This document shows positions 1,412 to 19,989 of a stretch of 20,413 nt of DNA, piece by piece. The notes below the pieces were generated by a model, which made no database searches, had not been told where the DNA came from, and saw nothing but the letters and a program-made list of their open reading frames with translations. Within the stretch, counting starts at the first letter, position 1. Each line of letters starts with the position of its first letter. The position numbers and the translations under genes were made by a program. Origin of the DNA: a virus; the IMG/VR virus record IMGVR_UViG_3300035698_006416, positions 1-20,413 of that record, one strand, 5' to 3'.

Positions 1412-2590
1412 GTGACTGTCGCGCACGTCAGCCCGTGGGGTGTCCAGTGCGGGATCGCGAAGCACCTGAGTTACTGGATCGCGGAATTGCCGCCCACGCG
1501 GCAGGTCGTGATGTTGGCGGAGACGCCCCCGCCGTGGTATCCGCCGGCAGCCCGATGGCCGGGGCCGCTGATTAATCGCTGCTGGAAACGCTCCGGCGCT
1601 GATGCTCTCCCGGCAATTCAAGCCGCCGCTGAGAAATGCGGCGCGGCAATTCTCCATTTTCAGTGGGACCCATCCTGGTTTCCGTATCGGTCAATGCTGG
1701 CATTTGGCGAGTGGGCGCGCGCGCGAAATGTCAAGATCATCGCAACAATTCACACGCTGGAGGACGTGGATCATTTCGCGTTCCAGAACCAAACCTTCCT
1801 TCGCGTCGTGGATCAGCTTGTCGTCGGCACTCCAGGCATGAAGCGAGCCTGGCGGGAGTACGCCGGACGATTTCATATCCCCATACGCCGGCCAATAGAG
1901 ATCATTCCCTTGCCTGCGCCGCCGCATCCGGTGACATTGCGGGGCCCCGAAGCAACCGATGCGGAGCCGGAGCCGACAGTGCTCACGTGGGGAATGCTTG
2001 GCAAGCTGAAGGGGCATCGCACTGTATTCGAGGCGGTGCAATACCTGCGTGAGACCGGATATCCCAAGCTCCGATATCTGGTCGTCGGAAGTGCGCTGAC
2101 GATGGAACAAAAAGAGCACGTTGCCGACCTGGAGGTCCTCGCGGCGGAAGCTCCTGATGTATTCGAGTTGCGTCTTGGATTCCCGGACGAATCGCAACTG
2201 TACGAATACTGCCGGAAGGCTTCCGTGATCGTGCTTAATCACCAATGGACGCATCAATCATCGAGCGGTACGGTCGCGCTGTCTGTGATGTCGGGCACGC
2301 CGGTTGTAGTCTCGGAGAGTCCGATGTTTTCGGGCTACGTGACTGAGGGGGCAGTTCGTGTCGCGCCGAACGACCCCAAGACTATGGCAGAGATCATCGC
2401 GGATTTACTACGCGCTCCGGATCAGCTTCTCGCGGGACGCGCGCGAATGCTCCAGCGAATCACGCCGGTGTCTGTGGCTGCTGAATACGAGCGGTTATAT
2501 CGGCTGCTGGAAGGGCCGTGCAAAACCGCAAAACCAAACCGGCCCAACAGGGCACAACGGATGGCTGATGCAATTTGGGGATACCGCTGA
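1412..2590 (+). CDS. GT-B glycosyltransferase (GT4-like), first of pair
   Basis: The 392-residue protein has a two-Rossmann-domain glycosyltransferase layout. The N-terminal domain starts VAHVSPWGVQCGIAKHL, a variant of the Gly-rich acceptor loop. The C-terminal domain begins near residue 188 with TVLTWGMLGKLKGH, followed by LRYLVVGSAL and the donor-site segment SSSGTVALSVMSGTPVVVSE (283-302). Such enzymes move a sugar from a nucleotide-sugar to an acceptor. The acidic pair of the canonical EX7E motif is not evident; Ser/Thr occupy that region, as in some GT4 relatives. Start is GTG with an excellent AGGAGGG site at 1398-1404. The next gene, a second glycosyltransferase, starts one base after the stop. 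The acceptor could be a virion protein; that is inference. Confidence 0.8.
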   Translation: MTVAHVSPWGVQCGIAKHLSYWIAELPPTRQVVMLAETPPPWYPPAARWPGPLINRCWKRSGADALPAIQAAAEKCGAAILHFQWDPSWFPYRSMLAFGEWARARNVKIIATIHTLEDVDHFAFQNQTFLRVVDQLVVGTPGMKRAWREYAGRFHIPIRRPIEIIPLPAPPHPVTLRGPEATDAEPEPTVLTWGMLGKLKGHRTVFEAVQYLRETGYPKLRYLVVGSALTMEQKEHVADLEVLAAEAPDVFELRLGFPDESQLYEYCRKASVIVLNHQWTHQSSSGTVALSVMSGTPVVVSESPMFSGYVTEGAVRVAPNDPKTMAEIIADLLRAPDQLLAGRARMLQRITPVSVAAEYERLYRLLEGPCKTAKPNRPNRAQRMADAIWGYR

Positions 2591-2591
2591 G

Positions 2592-3776
2592 ATGAAAATC
2601 CTTGGCATTCACGCGATGGACCACTACGGCGTGGGCGGCGCGTTGCGCGGTCAGGAGATGGGGTTCGCGCTCCGCAAGCTGGGACACGAAATCGTGCAGA
2701 TACCGCCAGGCCACTCTGCGGTTCACATGATCGAGGCCGATTCTCCCGACGCCGTGGTTCTGGCGGGGACGTGGCATCAGCTTATGACCCCTCGCGCCCA
2801 TGCCGCGATCGTGGCCGAAGCCTGCGACAAGGCCCACGTGCCCTGTATTTGGTGGTACGGGTCGAACGGGTCTGTATTCGGCTGTGTCGATCCTTCGCCC
2901 GACGTGCGCGCGCAAACAGAACGCCGAGTGATCCAGGCCATTTGCGATCGTCAATTCATCGCCGTAATCTGCCCGTATTCAATTGGCATCTATGCGCGCC
3001 ATGGTGTGCCGCGCCCGAAAATGCGGCTTGTCCCGAGCGTATTCGATGGCGACCTTTTCTGTCCCGCGTCGAGCACCTATGATGCGCGTGTCTCTGAGCG
3101 GATGCGGTACAAGTTTGGAATTCCGGACGGCGCGTTCTGCCTTGGCACCGTGGGCCATACGCCAAACAGCAAAGGCGGCGATGAAATCATTCAGGCCGTG
3201 GCCCTCCTGAAAAACGAGATGCCGGACCTACATTACCTGGTTTTGCACAGCCCGGAAAACACGTTGAGCAAAGTCAAGGCCACGAGTCCGGATAAGAAGG
3301 TCATTGGCAACAGCGAATGGGACGTACTCCAAAAAACCAAGGTCCTTGCGCGTACGCTTGGCGTCCAGGATCGCGTGCGGTTCCTTGGGATGAGATTTCC
3401 GCGCATTGCAATGCCGACGTTCTATCGGCTGTGTGACGTCTACTGTTCGCCGTCCAAGGCTGAAAACTTGGGGCAGCCGTTGGTCGAGTCGCAACTCTGC
3501 GGGTTGCCGCTGCTGACGTTCAAGGGCTTCAGTTTCGATTTTGTCGCCTGCCCGACAAGCGCCGTGCAGATCGAGCCCACACATACGGTAACGGATAACT
3601 ACGGATTGGTGATCCCCGAGGTGAGTGGCGAGGTCGTTGCCGAGGGCATCCGCCAAGCACGCGCGCTAGGGGGGGATGCGGAGATCGCCAAAGCAACGCG
3701 CGCGTGGGCTTACGAGAAGTTCCACCACCACAATGCACAGGTGATGGTGGACGCCATCGAGGAATACCGTGGCTGA
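2592..3776 (+). CDS. GT-B glycosyltransferase (GT4 family), second of pair
   Basis: This 394-residue protein shows the retaining GT4 pattern. It has an N-terminal fold starting MKILGIHAMDHYGVGGALRG, a C-domain from about residue 183 (LGTVGHTPNSKGGDEIIQA), and the donor-site motif SKAENLGQPLVESQLCGLP with the two glutamates of EX7E at 291 and 299. It should transfer a sugar from a nucleotide donor. I chose ATG 2592, one base after the previous stop, because the Rossmann strand MKILGIH starts there. The frame is open further upstream (to ATG 2568 and a GTG at 2358), but that stretch overlaps the previous gene and does not resemble the family. The stop overlaps the next start by 8 bases. Confidence 0.83.
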   Translation: MKILGIHAMDHYGVGGALRGQEMGFALRKLGHEIVQIPPGHSAVHMIEADSPDAVVLAGTWHQLMTPRAHAAIVAEACDKAHVPCIWWYGSNGSVFGCVDPSPDVRAQTERRVIQAICDRQFIAVICPYSIGIYARHGVPRPKMRLVPSVFDGDLFCPASSTYDARVSERMRYKFGIPDGAFCLGTVGHTPNSKGGDEIIQAVALLKNEMPDLHYLVLHSPENTLSKVKATSPDKKVIGNSEWDVLQKTKVLARTLGVQDRVRFLGMRFPRIAMPTFYRLCDVYCSPSKAENLGQPLVESQLCGLPLLTFKGFSFDFVACPTSAVQIEPTHTVTDNYGLVIPEVSGEVVAEGIRQARALGGDAEIAKATRAWAYEKFHHHNAQVMVDAIEEYRG

Positions 3777-5322: not shown

Positions 5323-5638
5323 TTTTTACATCAAGACTGACGACACGCGCCCCTACCTTGGCGCGCGGATCAAGCAAGATGCGGCAGCGGTAAGCCTCTC
5401 CGGGGCAACGGTAGCTTTCACGATGGCGACAACTGCCGGTGTCGTGAAGGTAAACCGGCAAGCATGTGTCGTCACGGATGCCACCGCCGGCGAGTGCGAA
5501 TACCGCTGGGCTGCCGGGGACACGGACACGGCCGGCGAGTACAATGCCGAGCTTGAGATTACGTTCGCCGACGGCAAGGTGATGACCGCTCCGGCGAATG
5601 GTTATATCCGGCTGACGGTGGTCGAGGACTTGGCATGA
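5315..5638 (+). CDS. BppU N-terminal domain-like baseplate/fibre protein
   Basis: This 107-residue protein reads like the N-terminal domain of phage baseplate upper protein BppU (DUF2479-like). It has MADFYIKTDDTRPYLGARI, then VSLSGATVAFTM, then YRWAAGDTDTAGEYNAELEI and ITFADGKV with a short NGYIRLTVVED ending. In characterised phages this domain attaches receptor-binding proteins to the baseplate; here it stands alone. I chose ATG 5315 over an in-frame upstream GTG at 5282 because GGAGGTG (5304-5310) is ideally spaced and the family match starts at MADF. The first bases overlap the beta-helix gene, and the stop overlaps the methyltransferase start (ATGA). Together these suggest a small fibre module. 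Confidence 0.72.
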   Translation: MADFYIKTDDTRPYLGARIKQDAAAVSLSGATVAFTMATTAGVVKVNRQACVVTDATAGECEYRWAAGDTDTAGEYNAELEITFADGKVMTAPANGYIRLTVVEDLA

Positions 5639-6150
5639 ATGAGATGATCGTCGGTTACGAGGCTGCGGCAGATCGAATTGAAGCGGAAATCGGCAAGCCG
5701 ATGGGCAACGTACTCGATATCGGGTGCAATTCGGGCGATGGCATGATGGCGTTGGCGGCGCGGTGGCCGAATACTACGGTGATGGGGATCGAGCCTGACG
5801 ACACCCTGGGGCGTCTTGCGCGGGATAAGGGCTTGGCCGTATGGTGCGCGAGTGCTGAGGACATATCGGTCGGCGATGGCGCAATTGACCTCGTGTTCTC
5901 GCGGCACTCGCTAGAGCACGTTCCGGATCGGAACTTGGCGGTTCAGGAGTTGTGGCGAGTTCTGCGACTAGGAGGACACCTGTACATTCAGGCGCCCATA
6001 GAGCCCGGCGGGTCGCCGAATGCCCTGCACGTATCGCCATTCCTGTCATGCGACGAGTTGCGAGGTCGTTGCATGTCCCTTTTGGGCTCCCGCGAGATTT
6101 ACTGGGGCCCCCAGGCGACCGTCGCTGAAATCATCATCAAGAAGGAGTAG
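5635..6150 (+). CDS. Class I SAM-dependent methyltransferase (Methyltransf_11-like)
   Basis: The 171-residue protein carries the Rossmann methyltransferase motifs. Motif I is NVLDIGCNSGDG (25-36), the acidic ribose-binding residue is in GIEPDD (51-56), and the central IDLVFSRHSLEHVPD (84-98) is followed by RVLRLGGHLYIQAP (108-121). It should move a methyl group from S-adenosylmethionine to a small molecule, sugar or protein; there is no DNA-methylase catalytic motif such as DPPY. It is shorter than typical members and has only a brief C-terminal cap. The ATG overlaps the previous stop in ATGA. Its place after two glycosyltransferases suggests it modifies the same glycan or the same virion protein, which is inference. 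Confidence 0.82.
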   Translation: MNEMIVGYEAAADRIEAEIGKPMGNVLDIGCNSGDGMMALAARWPNTTVMGIEPDDTLGRLARDKGLAVWCASAEDISVGDGAIDLVFSRHSLEHVPDRNLAVQELWRVLRLGGHLYIQAPIEPGGSPNALHVSPFLSCDELRGRCMSLLGSREIYWGPQATVAEIIIKKE

Positions 6151-6152
6151 TC

Positions 6153-6875
6153 ATGCTGTCCAATTACCAGGGCGACGGCGCGGTACTCGACACGCTGAAC
6201 GACACCGGCGGCGATCATGCCGACGGTGACATGATCGTCGTCGGCGATACGGTCCGCGTGTGTATTGGCGCGATCGTGAACAACGCGACCGGTTCGGCGT
6301 ATTCTCAGGGTGTATTCCAGTTGAGCGCGACCGCCGCCGATTCGTGGACGGACGGAGCGGTACTCTACTGGGATTCCGCAACCGCGAAGTTGACGGACAC
6401 CGCGAGCACGAACACCCTTGCCGGATATGCCGTGGACGCGAAGGTAGTCAATAGCCTGACGGCGAAGGTCAAGTTCGATCCGGGGGCCATCAGCACCGGG
6501 CGTGTCGGCACGACCGCGTTGGCAGTGGACAGCGTGACCGAGACAGAACTGGAAGCCTACACCTCGGGCTCTGTGGCTGTGATTGCCGACGAGTTGCCGA
6601 TCCCGATTACGCACAGATTTGCGTCGAAAACCACGGGAGCTGATGCCGAAGCCCTGACGCTGGCCGATGGCACGCCCTGTCAAAAGGTGACAATCAGCCT
6701 CGTCGTTGACGGCGGCGGCGACGGGACCCTTACCCCGACGACATGTACAGGTTTTGCGACTATCGTATTCGCCGACGCGGGCGATACGGCCGAACTGGAG
6801 TTTGTCGACGCGGCAACCGGTTGGGTTATCGGCGCTCTCTTCGGCGTTGCCGCGCCTCCGGCGATCACGATCTAG
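6153..6875 (+). CDS. DUF2190-type capsid decoration protein, copy 2
   Basis: This 240-residue protein is a paralog of the gene at 356. They share VFQLSATAADSWTDGAVLYW against VFTLDATSADDWSDGDALYW, a repeated KLTDTAS-type strand, and a closely matching C-terminal domain (KTTGADAEALTLADG, GGDGTLTP, FVDAATGWVI, APPAITI). The N-terminus lacks the standard MATNYxQxGK opening, and an additional ~20-residue segment separates the two halves (around TETELEAYTSG). A second decoration or cement protein is the likely role. AAGGAG (6142-6147) precedes the ATG. It resumes the virion gene order after the glycosyltransferase cassette, so the two copies flank that cassette. Confidence 0.78.
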   Translation: MLSNYQGDGAVLDTLNDTGGDHADGDMIVVGDTVRVCIGAIVNNATGSAYSQGVFQLSATAADSWTDGAVLYWDSATAKLTDTASTNTLAGYAVDAKVVNSLTAKVKFDPGAISTGRVGTTALAVDSVTETELEAYTSGSVAVIADELPIPITHRFASKTTGADAEALTLADGTPCQKVTISLVVDGGGDGTLTPTTCTGFATIVFADAGDTAELEFVDAATGWVIGALFGVAAPPAITI

Positions 6876-8506: not shown

Positions 8507-9421
8507 ATGGCTGGCCCACTGCTGAACAGAGTTCGAGTGCTTGCCGCGAAGGTGGAAGGCACGCCGGGAACTGCGGAAGCGTTGACCGCGGCTGAAGCTG
8601 CGCACAACGTGTTCGACGCGAAAATCCAGCAAATGATGGATGTCGAGGAGCGGCCTGAGCAGGGCGGATTTGAGGCCTTGCCGACAGTGCTTGGCGGCCA
8701 CAAGGGCCAGATCACGTTCTCGATGGAGATGTACGGCGGCGCAGCCGCGCCGCCCTGGGCGTCCGTGTTTCTCCCCGCGTGTGGGCTGGGCATCGTAGTC
8801 GGAACGTACAAGCTCGACAAACTCCCGCCGGAGGCCGCCGCGAGTACGTGCGAGACGATCACGATCGGGATGTATGAGGATGGCGTGTTCAAGGTGCTTG
8901 CCGGCTGCATGGGGAACGCGAAGTTCACATTTGACGCGGGCAAGAAGGCTCGCGTTGAGTTCACGTTTACCGGCATCTGGGCCGCGCCGACGGACGTGGC
9001 AATTCTCGCGCCGACGTATCCCACGAGCGTGCCGCTGCGATTCGTGTCGTCCGCGCTGACCGTCGGGGCGTGGACTCCGGCAGTGCAGCAGTTGACCATC
9101 GACCTTGGCAACGTGGTCTATCTGCGCGAGGACTCGACCAAGGCGTCTGGGTACTCATCGGCTGTGATTCAGAATCGGCTCGTCAAGGGCACGCTGAACC
9201 CGGAGACGGCGCTCATTGCAACCAAGGACCTGTTCGGAGAGTGGCTTGCGGCGACGGAGGCGGCCCTATCGGTTAAGGCGATTGCCGGTGCCGCCGACTG
9301 CACGCTTACGGCCACGGAGATGCAATTTCTCAATCCCCAGGAAGCCGAACGGGAAGGACTCCAGACGACGGAACTGGAGTATCAGCTGAACGCGGACGAC
9401 CTGACGCTGACGTTTACCTAG
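8507..9421 (+). CDS. Major tail tube protein
   Basis: The 304-residue protein starts LLNRVRVLAAKVEGTPGTAE, a common opening of phage tail-tube proteins (an extended arm with VExTPGTA). It continues as alternating strands including FTFTGIWAAPTD and a TELEYQLNADDLTLTF ending. Hexamers of such proteins stack into the tail tube. Two AG-rich ribosome sites precede the ATG (AGGAG 8493-8497 and AGGA 8501-8504). It lies between tail terminator and tail chaperone genes, the canonical position for the tube protein. Its length exceeds lambda gpV (246), implying an extra domain. Confidence 0.8.
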   Translation: MAGPLLNRVRVLAAKVEGTPGTAEALTAAEAAHNVFDAKIQQMMDVEERPEQGGFEALPTVLGGHKGQITFSMEMYGGAAAPPWASVFLPACGLGIVVGTYKLDKLPPEAAASTCETITIGMYEDGVFKVLAGCMGNAKFTFDAGKKARVEFTFTGIWAAPTDVAILAPTYPTSVPLRFVSSALTVGAWTPAVQQLTIDLGNVVYLREDSTKASGYSSAVIQNRLVKGTLNPETALIATKDLFGEWLAATEAALSVKAIAGAADCTLTATEMQFLNPQEAEREGLQTTELEYQLNADDLTLTFT

Positions 9422-9434
9422 CCCAGGAGGAGCG

Positions 9435-9884
9435 ATGCCCCTAGCACTGGATACAGCAGAGACATTCGAGGTCGTGCTCGAAACGGACAAGGGCGTTGAC
9501 CCGCAACCGGCGTTCGTGTTTCGTTACCTGTCGGCTCGTGAGTGGCGACAGGTCGCCAAGGTTGGCGACGACCGCGAAGCGCTTGCCGCGAGCGAAGAAC
9601 CGCTTGACGCTCTCTATGGTACTCTGTGTGTCAACCTCGTCGGATGGCAGAACCTCCGGGACCGTTCGGGGCAAGAGATTCCGTTTGACGCAGCCGAGCT
9701 CGACACGCTTACCACGGTTGGCGAAGCGTGGGAACTCTACTACTCGGCACGGCGGCAGGTTCGGCTGACGCCGGACCTAAAAAAAAACTCAGAGTTGCCG
9801 TCGCCTACCAATACGGGCGAATCTGTGCCGGAGAGTGCGGAGGGTGTCCCCACGCCGGAGGGCGCCCCGCCCCTGGCGCCGTAA
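9435..9884 (+). CDS. Tail assembly chaperone gpG-like, zero-frame product
   Basis: This 149-residue product starts with FEVVLETDKGVDPQPAFVFRY and a helical middle (AREWRQVAKVGDDREALAAS, TVGEAWELYYSARRQVRL). After the slippery site its C-terminus becomes a disordered Pro/Ser/Glu-rich tail (SPTNTGESVPESAEGVPTPE). Tail assembly chaperones of this kind occur between tube and tape measure genes and are made in two forms, the longer by a -1 ribosomal frameshift (see 9779). It binds and holds the tape measure during tail assembly in characterised siphophages. AGGAGG precedes the ATG. Position, disordered tail, and frameshift make the call secure, though the core fold is inferred. Confidence 0.82.
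   Translation: MPLALDTAETFEVVLETDKGVDPQPAFVFRYLSAREWRQVAKVGDDREALAASEEPLDALYGTLCVNLVGWQNLRDRSGQEIPFDAAELDTLTTVGEAWELYYSARRQVRLTPDLKKNSELPSPTNTGESVPESAEGVPTPEGAPPLAP
9779..9788 (+). promoter_or_regulatory. Programmed -1 ribosomal frameshift slippery site
   Basis: Nine A residues (9779-9787) followed by C create two overlapping slippery heptamers in the gpG frame: A-AAA-AAA (9779-9785) and A-AAA-AAC (9782-9788). A -1 slip moves ribosomes into the overlapping frame that is open to 10156, joining the two chaperone segments. A GGCGCC/GGCGCC stem (9861-9866 / 9875-9880) exists further downstream but is too far to be an obvious stimulator. Confidence 0.85.
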
Positions 9885-10156
9885 TCGCCCAGTACGAATG
9901 CCCCGAGTGTGGCGGCAAGGGATGCGAGGAATGCGACGGCGACGGAGATCAACGACTGACTATCTGCCCGCTGGAATACGTGATGCCGGATGTCTGGCAA
10001 GGGATCGAAATGGCTGACCTGTACAAACGCGGATCACCACCGCTTGCGGGTGGCAGCCTCGATCAGACTCAGGTATTCCTTGATGCCGCTCGGTTCGTGT
10101 GGGGCGAGGCAGCCCACTGGCGCGCCGAACTTGGATTGACGATGACCGATGGCTAA
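9788..10156 (+). CDS. Tail assembly chaperone gpGT, frameshift extension with DnaJ-type cysteine motifs
   Basis: This is the -1 frame segment translated only as a fusion to the first 118 residues of the gpG-like protein, giving about 240 residues (close to lambda gpGT, 279). It starts LRVAVAYQYGRICAGECGGC and carries two perfect tandem CxxCxGxG motifs, CPECGGKG and CEECDGDG (fusion residues 156-171), plus further cysteines at about 131, 135, 138 and 179. Such motifs bind zinc in DnaJ-family chaperones. The rest is helical (LDAARFVWGEAAHWRAEL), like other T extensions. There is no ribosome site of its own, and its stop overlaps the tape measure ATG. Confidence 0.8.
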   Translation, partial: LRVAVAYQYGRICAGECGGCPHAGGRPAPGAVIAQYECPECGGKGCEECDGDGDQRLTICPLEYVMPDVWQGIEMADLYKRGSPPLAGGSLDQTQVFLDAARFVWGEAAHWRAELGLTMTDG

Positions 10157-11921
10157 GCAATCCCTCGAAATCGTGATGAAGGCTCGGGACGAGGCGAGCT
10201 CCAAGCTGAAGAAGGTACAGTCGAGCATTGCCGGCTTGAATGCAGCGACGGTTGCGGGGGGTCTTGCCGCCATCGGTGGAATCGGGATGCTGGCCAAGGC
10301 GGCGGCCGCGGGGGTCATGGGCATCGTCGCTGCACAGAAGGAAGCCGCTGCGGTTCAGCAGGGTTCGGCGTCTGATATCCTGGAATCGCAGATCAAAATC
10401 AACACCGCGTGGGCCGAGCTTGGCGGATCAATCCCGCTCATCGGCGAAGCCGTGAAGAAGGCAATGGACGCCTGGTCGGATGCGGAGGGCATCCGCAAGG
10501 CTATTGCGGCAATCAAGCAGATTGAAGCTGCCGCGAAAAAGTATCACGATAAGGCCATGCAATGGGCTCGGGAACGCGCGTTCCTGGAAGCCAAGGTCGC
10601 CGGAAAAACGGCGGCGCAAATTGCGGCGATGAAAATTGAGTACGCACGCGAGGGGCGCGCGGCCGATATTGCCGAGATGCGAAAGCAGGAACAGAAAGCC
10701 CATACGCTAGTAAAACAGGCAGCTCGAAAGATAAGCGAGTTGCGTATAAATGAAGAAGAAGAGTACAGGCGGCAGGTAGAACAGCATGGTAAGAAATGGG
10801 CCGATTCCAGCCGCAGCATTGGTGGTGGCGCCAAGCAACGCAAGGCGGCAGATGCCACCTACAAAGACCTCGTAAAGAAGCGCGCATCGATTCGCGCCGA
10901 CCTCCGCTCAATGGAATCGGATGAGGCGCGCCGAAAGATTGCCGAGGACAAGGATATTGAGCAGCAGCGCACGAACGAAATTGAAGCGGAAGAAAAGAAA
11001 CGCGCGAGTAGTGCCAAGTCGTTTGCCGATCGGCACGCAGCGGACATGGCGGCAATACGGTCGGCAGCAGCGGCGCGCCGCGACACGGCTGAACAGGCCG
11101 AGGCGCGGGCAACCAGAGAGCGCTACGCGAAGATGCTTGCGCCGTATGCTGCGGCGTTGCATGGCAAGGAAAAAGCCGACGAGAACTATGCTGCGGCTAA
11201 GCTAAAAATCGAGGAGTACGCTGCGCATGAGATGCGGCGAATCCAGGAGGAGGGTGGCGACCGGGCGGAAGCCGAGGATGAGATAGCGCGGCGAACCGAA
11301 GCAGCTAAGGACGTTCACGCCGCCGAACTCCACCAGGCGCGCCGCGCCGCCAAGATGCGAGAGCGGATCGAGAAGGAGAAGGCTGCCGCGCTCCTGGCGA
11401 TTCAGAAAAAATCCGCGTCAGCAGCGGCAGCCGAGGCGAAACGGGCCGCCGACGCACAAACCGCCGCTGACCGCAAGGCGGCCGAAGAGAAGCGCCGATC
11501 CGACGAGCAGGCGGCGGCCACAAAATCACAGCTTGAACAGACGATTCTCCGAGCTACCGGGAAGAGCCGCGAAGCTGACCTGCGAGCGAACGCAGAGCAC
11601 TACGCCGGAATCCGCAAGGAGATTGATGCCAGCGCTACTGCCGACAAGGACCGATTGAAGGCGTTGGCGACGATAGCCGAGAAGTTGCGCGCGCGAGAGA
11701 TCAAGGGCAAGGACACCCCCACCGGCGCGCCGGAGGTGACGGCCTTCACGTCGCGGTTCCTCCAGCGCGCGCCCGGCCGCGAATCGAAGCCCGTGAACGC
11801 AGGCGACCTGGACAGCCAAACCAAGACCATCAGTGCGGAACTCGCAAAACTCCCGCGCAACATGGCGGCGGAAATCGCGCGCGAACTCGGGCAGCGGTTG
11901 AAAATCAGTAGCCTTAACTGA
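10149..11921 (+). CDS. Tail tape measure protein
   Basis: The 590-residue protein starts with MAKQSLEIVMKARDEASSKL, a typical tape-measure opening, followed by a hydrophobic Gly/Ala-rich segment (about residues 29-62) and then very long Ala/Glu/Lys/Arg-rich coiled coil (about 100-530) with virtually no folded domain. Such proteins set tail length and occupy the tail lumen before injection. At the usual ~1.5 Angstrom per residue this predicts a tail of roughly 90 nm. No peptidase or lysozyme domain is seen. The start overlaps the chaperone stop by 8 bases, so translation is coupled. Position after the frameshifted chaperones supports it strongly. Confidence 0.88.
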   Translation: MAKQSLEIVMKARDEASSKLKKVQSSIAGLNAATVAGGLAAIGGIGMLAKAAAAGVMGIVAAQKEAAAVQQGSASDILESQIKINTAWAELGGSIPLIGEAVKKAMDAWSDAEGIRKAIAAIKQIEAAAKKYHDKAMQWARERAFLEAKVAGKTAAQIAAMKIEYAREGRAADIAEMRKQEQKAHTLVKQAARKISELRINEEEEYRRQVEQHGKKWADSSRSIGGGAKQRKAADATYKDLVKKRASIRADLRSMESDEARRKIAEDKDIEQQRTNEIEAEEKKRASSAKSFADRHAADMAAIRSAAAARRDTAEQAEARATRERYAKMLAPYAAALHGKEKADENYAAAKLKIEEYAAHEMRRIQEEGGDRAEAEDEIARRTEAAKDVHAAELHQARRAAKMRERIEKEKAAALLAIQKKSASAAAAEAKRAADAQTAADRKAAEEKRRSDEQAAATKSQLEQTILRATGKSREADLRANAEHYAGIRKEIDASATADKDRLKALATIAEKLRAREIKGKDTPTGAPEVTAFTSRFLQRAPGRESKPVNAGDLDSQTKTISAELAKLPRNMAAEIARELGQRLKISSLN

Positions 11922-17507: not shown

Positions 17508-17641
17508 TCTCAAACCGGGCTGGGGTGATGGACAACAAGACCAACGGACACAACCGACAGGCAAATCGGGTCGCTCGCGGCGAGGCTCCCCCCAGCCCAC
17601 CCGCTGCGGGCGGCCCGGTTGCTTTGGAGGCCACCCCATGA
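17504..17641 (+). CDS. 45-residue small protein coupled at both ends
   Basis: This short ORF starts in an ATGA with the MerR-like gene stop and ends in an ATGA with the nuclease gene start. AAGGAG (17490-17495) is 8 bases before its ATG. The product begins MISNRAGVMDNKTNGHNRQA and then is proline/alanine-rich (EAPPSPPAAGG). It looks disordered and has no membrane segment. I do not recognise it. The coupling and ribosome site are strong evidence it is translated; it may be a phage regulatory or accessory peptide. Confidence 0.6.
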   Translation: MISNRAGVMDNKTNGHNRQANRVARGEAPPSPPAAGGPVALEATP

Positions 17642-18678
17642 CTGAAAACCTCACACACAGCGCCATGAGCGCGGCACGGCGATGCCTCATGTCATACCAC
17701 TACCGATATGAACTTGGCCTGGTCCGGGACGCCGAGGCCAAGGCGCTCCGCATGAGCAGCGCTGTCCACGCGGGGCTTGCGGCGTGGAGCCGTGGCTCGT
17801 GCGATTACGTCACGGTGGCCACTGCCGATTATGCCACGCTGCCGATATGGGCCGATCCCGACGACTGGGCAATCGAATGCGAGGTCGTCACGGCGCTGCT
17901 GGCGGGCTACTCGGCGTACTACCGCGACGATCCGATCGTATACCGCAGCGTCGAGGATAAGTTCACCGTGCCGCTTATCAACCCGGACACTGACCACCCG
18001 AGCCGCACGTTTCATCTGGCCGGACGGCGCGACGGGATCGTGGAATGGGAAGGCCGGCTGATGGTGCTCGAACGCAAGACGTGTGGCGAGGACATCAGCC
18101 CGGCGTCGGATTACTGGTTGAGGCTGCGGATTGACCCTCAGATCAGCCTGTATGCGCTTGCCGCCCGGCTGGAAGGCCACGACGTGGCCGGCGTGATGTA
18201 TGATGTAATTCGCAAGCCGACGATCAAGCCTCGCCAGGTGCCGTCGCTTGATGAGGACGGCTTGAAGATTGTGCTCGACAAGGACACTGGCGCGCGCGTG
18301 TTCAAGAAGGACGGCAAGCCACGGCAGTCTGGCGGGGGCGAAATGCTGTTGCTTTCGCGCACGGAATCCCCCGACGAATACGGCACGCGGCTGGCCGAGG
18401 ACATCAAGAGCCGCCCGGACCACTACTTCGCGCGGCGTGAAATCCCCCTGCTTGACGATCAACTCGAAACGTTCCGACACGAAATATGGCATCAGGCAAA
18501 GCTGCTCATGGAATGCCGCAACCGTGGGCTGTGGTTCAGGTCGGTTGGCCGTACCACCTGCGGATTCTGCGATTACGCGGATATCTGCTTGCAGAGCCGA
18601 TCCGTCGAAGATGGCGAGGTGCCGTCCGGGTACAGTCGTTTGGAAAACGTGCATCCTGAACTGGAGGATCAGAAATGA
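17638..18678 (+). CDS. PD-(D/E)XK nuclease, Cas4/RecB-like with Fe-S cysteines
   Basis: The 346-residue protein has the RecB-type nuclease pattern. It has an N-terminal cysteine (C16 in AARRCLMSYHYRYE), an active-site histidine (H44), D132 in GRRDGIVEW, E145 and K147 in VLERKT, the QxxxY motif (Q168, Y172), and a C-terminal C308-x2-C311-x5-C317 set. One N-terminal cysteine with three at the C-terminus is the 4Fe-4S arrangement of Cas4, AddB and phage exonucleases. It should be a DNA exonuclease for recombination or end processing. No cas1, cas2 or repeat array is near, so a CRISPR role is unlikely. GGAGG precedes the ATG, and the ends overlap neighbours. Confidence 0.85.
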   Translation: MTENLTHSAMSAARRCLMSYHYRYELGLVRDAEAKALRMSSAVHAGLAAWSRGSCDYVTVATADYATLPIWADPDDWAIECEVVTALLAGYSAYYRDDPIVYRSVEDKFTVPLINPDTDHPSRTFHLAGRRDGIVEWEGRLMVLERKTCGEDISPASDYWLRLRIDPQISLYALAARLEGHDVAGVMYDVIRKPTIKPRQVPSLDEDGLKIVLDKDTGARVFKKDGKPRQSGGGEMLLLSRTESPDEYGTRLAEDIKSRPDHYFARREIPLLDDQLETFRHEIWHQAKLLMECRNRGLWFRSVGRTTCGFCDYADICLQSRSVEDGEVPSGYSRLENVHPELEDQK

Positions 18679-18995
18679 GGTTCAAGATGGGCATGGTCCA
18701 GGCCGGCGGGGATAGCGCGGTGCAGGCGGCTGGGCACGCCGCAACACAAACGGCACGTTATTTTTCGACACAGACGGCAGGGGATATCTCGACACAGACG
18801 GCAGGGGAGTTTTCTACCCAGCGGGGCGGCACTGGCACCGTCCAGATTATTCGCGAGTGGGACGATGTCGGAGCAAAAACGCACGTTCGCGTCATCACAG
18901 ACGCCGAAGCCGACACGTGGTGGCGATTCGAGGACGGCGACTGGCGACTATGTACCGACGGCGAATCGGCTGAGGCTGACAGGAGGACGAAATGA
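18675..18995 (+). CDS. Small protein with octapeptide repeats
   Basis: The 106-residue protein has an N-terminal part with 8-residue repeats (ATQTARYF, STQTAGDI, STQTAGEF, STQRGGTG; about residues 23-54) and a C-terminal globular piece (VQIIREWDDVGAKTHVRVIT, WWRFEDGDWRLC). I do not recognise the family. The repeats come from a 24-base tandem repeat in DNA. Start overlaps the nuclease stop (ATGA), and its stop overlaps the next ATG in the same way, so it is translated with the recombination genes. A role as nuclease partner is only suggested by the order. Confidence 0.6.
   Translation: MRFKMGMVQAGGDSAVQAAGHAATQTARYFSTQTAGDISTQTAGEFSTQRGGTGTVQIIREWDDVGAKTHVRVITDAEADTWWRFEDGDWRLCTDGESAEADRRTK
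18741..18829. repeat. 24-base tandem repeat inside coding region
   Basis: About 3.5 copies of a 24-base unit: 18741-18764 (diverged), 18765-18788, 18789-18812 and a partial copy from 18813. The two central copies share ACACAGACGGCAGGGGA. It stays in frame, encoding octapeptides with consensus STQTAG(D/E)(I/F). Copy number could vary by slippage. Confidence 0.8.
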
Positions 18996-19207
18996 CGGAC
19001 CGCATATCGGATTGCGAGTTGGAGACGCGGGCGAAGCTGGACGCGAAGCCGGAGCACGCTTGCGAAGGATGCCGGAAGCGGGACGCGAAGATCGCCATAG
19101 TGTTCGACATCCTTGCCGAATCAACATCGATGTTGAAGGCCATGAATGCGTATGTACGGCTCCTCGAAGCCCAGATCGCAGACCTGAAAGGAAAGACCAC
19201 CCCATGA
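18992..19207 (+). CDS. Small hypothetical protein with CxxC
   Basis: This 71-residue protein has an N-terminal part with a CEGC pair (HACEGCRKRD) and a C-terminal helix likely to form a coiled coil (ILAESTSMLKAMNAYVRLLE). No family is recognised. It is translationally coupled on both sides by ATGA junctions, with the repeat protein before and the ATPase after. With one CxxC plus another cysteine it may bind metal, but this is uncertain. Confidence 0.55.
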   Translation: MTDRISDCELETRAKLDAKPEHACEGCRKRDAKIAIVFDILAESTSMLKAMNAYVRLLEAQIADLKGKTTP

Positions 19208-19989
19208 GCCCCCCCCCGAAACGGCAGACCGCACCTGGCGGCGCAACCTTCGAGACCGCACCCCGCGCAACGGCCCAACGAATCGGCATCTACGGCCCCG
19301 GCGGCATTGGGAAAACGAGTCTCGCGGCTGCGGCACCGGGCCCGGTCGTGTTTTTCGACTTGGACGACTCCCTTGGAATCCTCGGCCTGAAGGTTCAGCG
19401 CGTTTCAGGCACGCCCGACTTGGCCGACATGCGGCGCGTGCTGCAAGGCCCCGAATGGGACGACATCAAGACCATCGTGATTGACAGCGCGACGCGAGCC
19501 GAAGAACTTGCCGTGGACTGGACGTGCGCGAACGTGCGCACCGAAAAGGGCAAAACCGTGTCCCGGATCGAGGGCTACGGATACGGCCAGGGCTATACCC
19601 ACGTGTACGATACGTTTATGACGCTTGTCGGCGACCTTGACGCGCATATCCGCGCCGGACGCAACGTGATCCTCGTCATGCACGACTGTACCGCAAATGT
19701 CCCGAACCCCCACGGTGAAGATTACATTCGGTACGAGCCTCGCTTGCAGTCGCCGAAATCAGGCAAGGCGTCTATTCGCCTGCGCATACGGGAATGGCTC
19801 GACCACCTCATGTTCGTCGGGTATGATGTCGCCGTGGACAAAGGCAAAGGCCAGGGCTCTGGCACCCGCACGATCTACCCAGTGGAAACGCCGGCGTGTA
19901 TGGCGAAGAGCCGGTTGCTTGACGAGCCGATCCCGTTCGCACGCGACAGTGCGGAACTGTGGGATCGGTTGTTTGTTGATTCTGACTGA
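19204..19989 (+). CDS. RecA-fold AAA ATPase, Sak4-like (AAA_24 type)
   Basis: The 261-residue protein has Walker A GPGGIGKT (31-38) in QRIGIYGPGGIGKTSLAAAA, an early acidic strand VVFFDLDDSL, Walker B TIVIDSATRAEE (90-101), and a third strand NVILVMHD (154-161). This is the phage nucleotide-binding AAA_24 layout, including Sak4-type RecA-core recombinases that act in single-strand annealing. A nearby nuclease supports a recombination role, but some AAA_24 proteins have no tested function. Start is the ATG in the ATGA overlap; a longer in-frame extension to 18865 lies inside the earlier genes and is rejected. Confidence 0.8.
   Translation: MSPPPKRQTAPGGATFETAPRATAQRIGIYGPGGIGKTSLAAAAPGPVVFFDLDDSLGILGLKVQRVSGTPDLADMRRVLQGPEWDDIKTIVIDSATRAEELAVDWTCANVRTEKGKTVSRIEGYGYGQGYTHVYDTFMTLVGDLDAHIRAGRNVILVMHDCTANVPNPHGEDYIRYEPRLQSPKSGKASIRLRIREWLDHLMFVGYDVAVDKGKGQGSGTRTIYPVETPACMAKSRLLDEPIPFARDSAELWDRLFVDSD

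Follow-up and report, generated by a model that had tools for sequence, protein, structure and literature searches.

The window, by which we mean the whole stretch of DNA analysed here, is a 20,413-base virus record whose + strand carries two overlapping reading frames between a tail tube gene and a presumed tape measure gene. The tail tube protein (Phage_tube_2; 8507–9421), which served as the anchor of our searches, was recognised by Pfam PF18906 (E = 9.5e-11, above the cut-off) and PHROG 290 (E = 2e-12); upstream of its gene lie head-tail connector genes (PHROG 27, and PHROG 4204 for the tail terminator). The downstream neighbour G (9435–9884), with a 0-frame product of 149 aa, is assigned as a tail assembly chaperone from its position, from weak PHROG matches in relatives and from an AlphaFold model. 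Near the end of G and in frame with it, a run of nine A contains the canonical heptamer A AAA AAC (9782–9788), the putative −1 frameshift site. The −1 frame is open up to a stop at 10156 and would supply a T extension of 122 aa (9788–10156), giving a G–T fusion of 240 aa. The presumed tape measure gene (10149–11921) follows directly and overlaps the end of T. Its N-terminus matches those encoded by the correspondingly placed genes of relatives, with which the window shares the order tail tube, G, T, tape measure.

In the numbering of the 240-residue fusion, the cysteines of the T extension fall at 131, 135 and 138, at 156, 159, 164 and 167, and at 178. The first three form an outer triad (CAGECGGC, 9824–9847). 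The next four belong to an inner pair of CxxCxGxG motifs (9899–9946) set back to back, CPECGGKG at 9899–9922 and CEECDGDG at 9923–9946. The last putative ligand, C178, is followed by proline (CP, 9965–9970), and downstream of it lies a predicted two-helix core (9986–10129). A preliminary description of this DNA had correctly placed both motifs in the −1 frame and recognised the CxxC at 135–138; it overlooked C131 and C178.

An AlphaFold model of G residues 1–118 (pLDDT 81.6) shows a modest predicted resemblance to the tail assembly chaperone of HK97 and to YqbN. The top Foldseek matches were chains A and B of the HK97 protein (2ob9; probability 0.82–0.84, with E-values of 0.07–0.08), and VIA-align gave Z-scores of 5.7 for 3fgx, 4.9 for YqbN (3klu) and 4.4 for 2ob9, all under the level that stands out. 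The G proteins of some relatives weakly match PHROG 313 or 8233, annotated as tail assembly chaperone (best E = 0.0026), and window G has no match to PHROG 313. Position and slip site, together with the modest support from the fold, lead us to take the window to encode a lambda-type G/G–T tail assembly chaperone pair.

Elsewhere in the window, two Phage_cement_2 proteins (356–1012 and 6153–6875) are 45% identical to each other and flank two glycosyltransferase genes (1412–2590 and 2358–3776) and a methyltransferase gene (5635–6150), an arrangement that we read as two copies of a duplicated cement gene enclosing cargo within the structural module. Further downstream, a PD-(D/E)XK nuclease (17638–18678; PF12705, E = 1.8e-13) with a CGFC motif at 18559 adjoins an AAA_24 ATPase (18865–19989).

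Cysteine-bearing and cysteine-free T extensions

Direct searches with the T frame returned nothing significant in viral contigs, phages, Pfam, PHROGs or genome contigs, the phages yielding Alteromonas phage P24 alone (E = 0.3). As family libraries gave no match, relatives were sought by walking from the tail tube gene and additionally by searches with T profiles. In this way we found all eight cysteines kept in nine distinct lineages, the window included; the triad is CxxC-like, the inner pair CxxC...CxxC, and the last cysteine is part of a CP. The eight other lineages (L029; L003 with the near-identical L004–L006; L007; L028; L036/L037; L039/L051; L042; L053) are 31–61% identical to the window in T protein sequence. 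One of them, L053, is a 4.5-kb contig binned to a Microbacteriaceae MAG that encodes tail tube, G and an eight-cysteine T and may represent a prophage or a binning error.

It is the −1 frame that is conserved. Against L029, L039 and L007, in which all eight cysteines recur, its alignment scores were 354, 280 and 227, compared with 141, 44 and 48 and with 157, 44 and 7 for the other two frames; in the same comparison the T frame has no stops, whereas the other two contain 1–6. Two CxxCxGxG motifs arose in the T frame in none of 100,000 Markov shuffles of the 369-nt stretch, and one in 155 of 100,000, yet conservation is the stronger evidence that the motifs are real. The proposal of the preliminary description that a frameshifted tail chaperone carries a probable zinc site in its T extension alone is supported. 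The same description had stressed two perfect CxxCxGxG motifs, which holds for the window but is not a conserved trait, since both are perfect in three of the nine lineages only (window, L028 and L039). What the eight-cysteine lineages conserve is CxxC...G...CxxC, with an inner spacing of CxxC-x4-CxxC in six of nine and a longer one in L003, L007 and L028; the spacing of the outer triad also varies among them.

Eight further lineages, comprising Alteromonas phage P24, Rhodobacter phages RcZahn and RcTiptonus, Rhizobium phages TM16, L338C and I4, Agrobacterium phage JP1 and contig L055, lack the inner pair and have just the outer four cysteines (CxxC-x5..9-C ... CP). By HHalign, the CP and the two-helix core are homologous between the two sets (probability 92, E = 5e-7), and the outer four cysteines are present in all 17 T extensions, with the CP invariant across the alignment and the triad variable in spacing. 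Window T thus has in common with the T extensions of P24, RcZahn, L338C and JP1 the outer four cysteines, the CP and a homologous core, the triad being matched by position. Counted in T residues, the first cysteine is at 10–14 in one set and at 16–18 in the other, which favours equating the outer triads. Since MAFFT, run on all sequences, placed the CxxC of the four-cysteine set on the inner pair instead, and the HHalign match begins only at the CP, we infer this correspondence from position and the shared CP. The four-cysteine T extensions otherwise agree with the window in gene order and heptamer, and the best reading of the difference is that the DnaJ-like knuckle is a lineage-specific insert in T.

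Many phages with related tail tubes carry a T of another kind, cysteine-free and of the DUF1799 type (Synechococcus phages S-CBS1, S-CBS3 and S-LBS1; RcapMu, whose T bears the DUF1799 annotation; RcWaterboi; RS1; ThpS-P1; contigs L043–L047). Like window T, it follows a related tail tube gene in the same −1 layout, with its own canonical heptamer in the isolates; unlike window T, it has no cysteine motifs. The shared gene order made homology worth considering, but we rejected it, as HHalign of the zinc-type T alignments A6 and A7 against the DUF1799-type alignment gave probabilities of 0.3 and 0.1. The preliminary description had named homologs of the same gene order but without the cysteines as counting against its proposal of a distinct T type; such an arrangement occurs only in these remote relatives, whose T has no detectable homology to that of the window. 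A T type distinct from the cysteine-free ones is supported. As a T without cysteine motifs occupies the same context, zinc is not required for T there, and one T type has, by all appearances, replaced the other.

Access to the T frame

A canonical heptamer lies at the G–T junction in seven of the nine eight-cysteine lineages and in all eight four-cysteine relatives. Its form is A AAA AAC in the window, L029, L003, P24, RcZahn, TM16 and JP1; A AAA AAA in L036, L039 and, by its context, L053; A AAT TTT in L042; A AAA AAG in RcTiptonus; and G GGA AAC in L338C, I4 and L055. Downstream of the window slip site, the predicted RNA fold is no better than that of shuffles (z = −0.9), so that no stimulatory structure was detected there.

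T could alternatively be a small zinc protein in its own right, whose translation begins at an internal start of the −1 frame, and not part of a fusion. A GTG at 9728 opens the −1 ORF, and the junctions of L007 (6300–6320, GGC AAA TTC) and L028 (2985–3001, GCA AAA CTA) have no canonical heptamer, with the eight-cysteine T again in the −1 frame. Moreover, the annotators of RcZahn drew the equivalent reading frame as a gene of its own, gene 28, and saw, according to their genome paper, no clear signal for a frameshift (PMC8601537). Against this stands the heptamer exactly at the junction in all the other lineages, RcZahn included, together with a conservation of T that starts right after it. We therefore consider a separate protein improbable and favour the G–T fusion; the in-frame A AAA AAC at the RcZahn junction (L011:2779–2785) is, as we read the sequence, the frameshift signal that its authors could not identify.

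The inner cysteine pair and DnaJ

The preliminary description had also suggested a DnaJ-like substrate-binding element. The inner motifs would then be a working DnaJ-type element, through which the fusion with its zinc would capture tape measure, or another tail protein, in an unfolded state, in the manner of the cysteine-rich domain of DnaJ, or would act on thiols. A profile of T does match the central domain of DnaJ (1exk, E = 1.3e-3), NCBIfam DnaJ models match one relative with E-values down to 8e-5, and a DnaJ-type zinc domain without a J domain can act as a holdase, as in ZnJ2 (PMC5818400). However, the PDB matches of the T profile span only about residues 31–55, roughly 24 residues, and include EMB2737 (5.6e-4), PheRS-alpha (4p71, 6.7e-3) and anti-TRAP (3lcz, 7.1e-3). 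As the knuckles of DnaJ, anti-TRAP and PheRS-alpha match the inner pair about equally well, we conclude that the pair is most plausibly a generic zinc knuckle and not the mark of a DnaJ protein.

Further observations point the same way. DnaJ and ZnJ2 carry four CxxCxGxG motifs (PMC5818400), which in DnaJ make up two zinc sites, whereas T has two motifs and one knuckle pair. The DnaJ profile PF00684 has no match to window T at E ≤ 1; in relatives it scores 9.5 bits (L003) and 11.2 bits (L007) against a curated cut-off of 32.7 bits, with a best E-value of 0.0018 among eight T members, and it falls below the cut-off wherever a bit score is given. A search of G and the fusion for a J domain gave no match, and homologous T extensions do without the inner pair. 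DnaJ membership was accordingly rejected on motif count and cut-offs, and the proposed substrate-binding element finds no support; a DnaJ chaperone is unlikely, and we rate a working DnaJ-type element as quite improbable. More speculative still is the idea that a holdase or thiol element with a single knuckle was taken up by the phage into a rare frameshift product, only the few G–T per tail holding or checking the unfolded tape measure. If the knuckle did act in the DnaJ sense, zinc or redox state would control tail assembly. Similar knuckles also occur in cyanophage genes, where they match over the cysteine stretch only (E = 0.2–0.6).

A probable zinc-stabilised T domain and its known counterparts

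An AlphaFold model of T built from 8 sequences (pLDDT 70.5; residues 18–24 below 50) places helices at T residues 67–80 and 91–114, with G-x-P-P...GG-x-LDQ between them. A fold search with this model gave nothing significant: the best PDB match was anti-TRAP (2zp9, E = 1.6, probability 0.75), Atg44 reached a Z-score of 5.3 over the helices, and the best match in the viral library had an E-value of 0.04.

As a whole, the locus is best explained, with a probability of roughly 0.75, by a frameshift-made G–T fusion whose T domain is stabilised by zinc and docks tail partners through its helical core. Most ribosomes would make G alone, and a minority would slip by −1 at A AAA AAC and add the T domain. 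The eight conserved cysteines probably bind zinc: the outer triad near the start of T and the CP just before the first helix may form one site, and the DnaJ-type CxxCxGxG-CxxC knuckle, inserted between them, a second. A four-cysteine T would accordingly hold one zinc (outer) and an eight-cysteine T two (outer plus inner). Together the sites would anchor the N-terminal half of T on the conserved two-helix core, which could present a surface to which the tail tube protein or the tape measure docks, by analogy with lambda T. Transcriptional slippage, a phenomenon of RNA polymerase known at a run length of nine A, might yield the same protein from the A9 of the window (9779–9787), but this is very improbable, because only six A stand at that place in L029, L003 and P24, and L042 and L338C/I4 use AAATTTT and GGGAAAC, respectively, leaving the ribosomal heptamer as the common denominator.

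The tape measure offers a lead on the proposed docking by the putative zinc-stabilised T domain. In the window (10149–10230) it starts with I-x-x-K-ARD-x-AS-x-K, and most phages with a zinc-type T share an I-x-ARD-x-AS-x-K-like motif there, which those with a DUF1799-type T lack. This shared N-terminus may reflect docking of T there, but it is no more than a lead: JP1, RcTiptonus and the annotated start of L338C are exceptions.

Nothing in the assembly of long-tailed phages is less understood than the T half of their tail chaperones, which varies beyond recognition between phages. The cysteine-marked family can be traced from metagenomic contigs to isolates with culturable hosts (Alteromonas, Rhodobacter, Rhizobium and Agrobacterium), which makes it useful for locating T frames that lack annotation, for determining a T structure with the help of its metal and for testing which partners T binds. 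Open-licence full-text papers on tail assembly or tape measure chaperones yielded no description of a cysteine-rich or zinc-bearing T, and the zinc type appears to be an undescribed variant of the G/G–T tail chaperone.

Among known systems, the cysteine-rich domain of DnaJ (PF00684), ZnJ2/BSD2, anti-TRAP and PheRS-alpha share with T the local CxxCxGxG...CxxC knuckle, which in T sits as a single pair within an unrelated phage domain. The HK97 tail assembly chaperone (2OB9) and YqbN (3KLU) resemble the predicted fold of G; both are G-type proteins and uninformative on a zinc T. The closest parallel in layout is gpG/gpGT of lambda and the conserved G–T frameshift of long-tailed phages, with the same gene position, a −1 heptamer, a G product plus a longer G–T and then the tape measure gene. 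In lambda, the binding partner of G is the tape measure and that of T the tail shaft subunit, and the ratio of G to G–T matters (reviewed in PMC5009743). Unlike gpG/gpGT, the window has a T with a probable eight-cysteine zinc fold.
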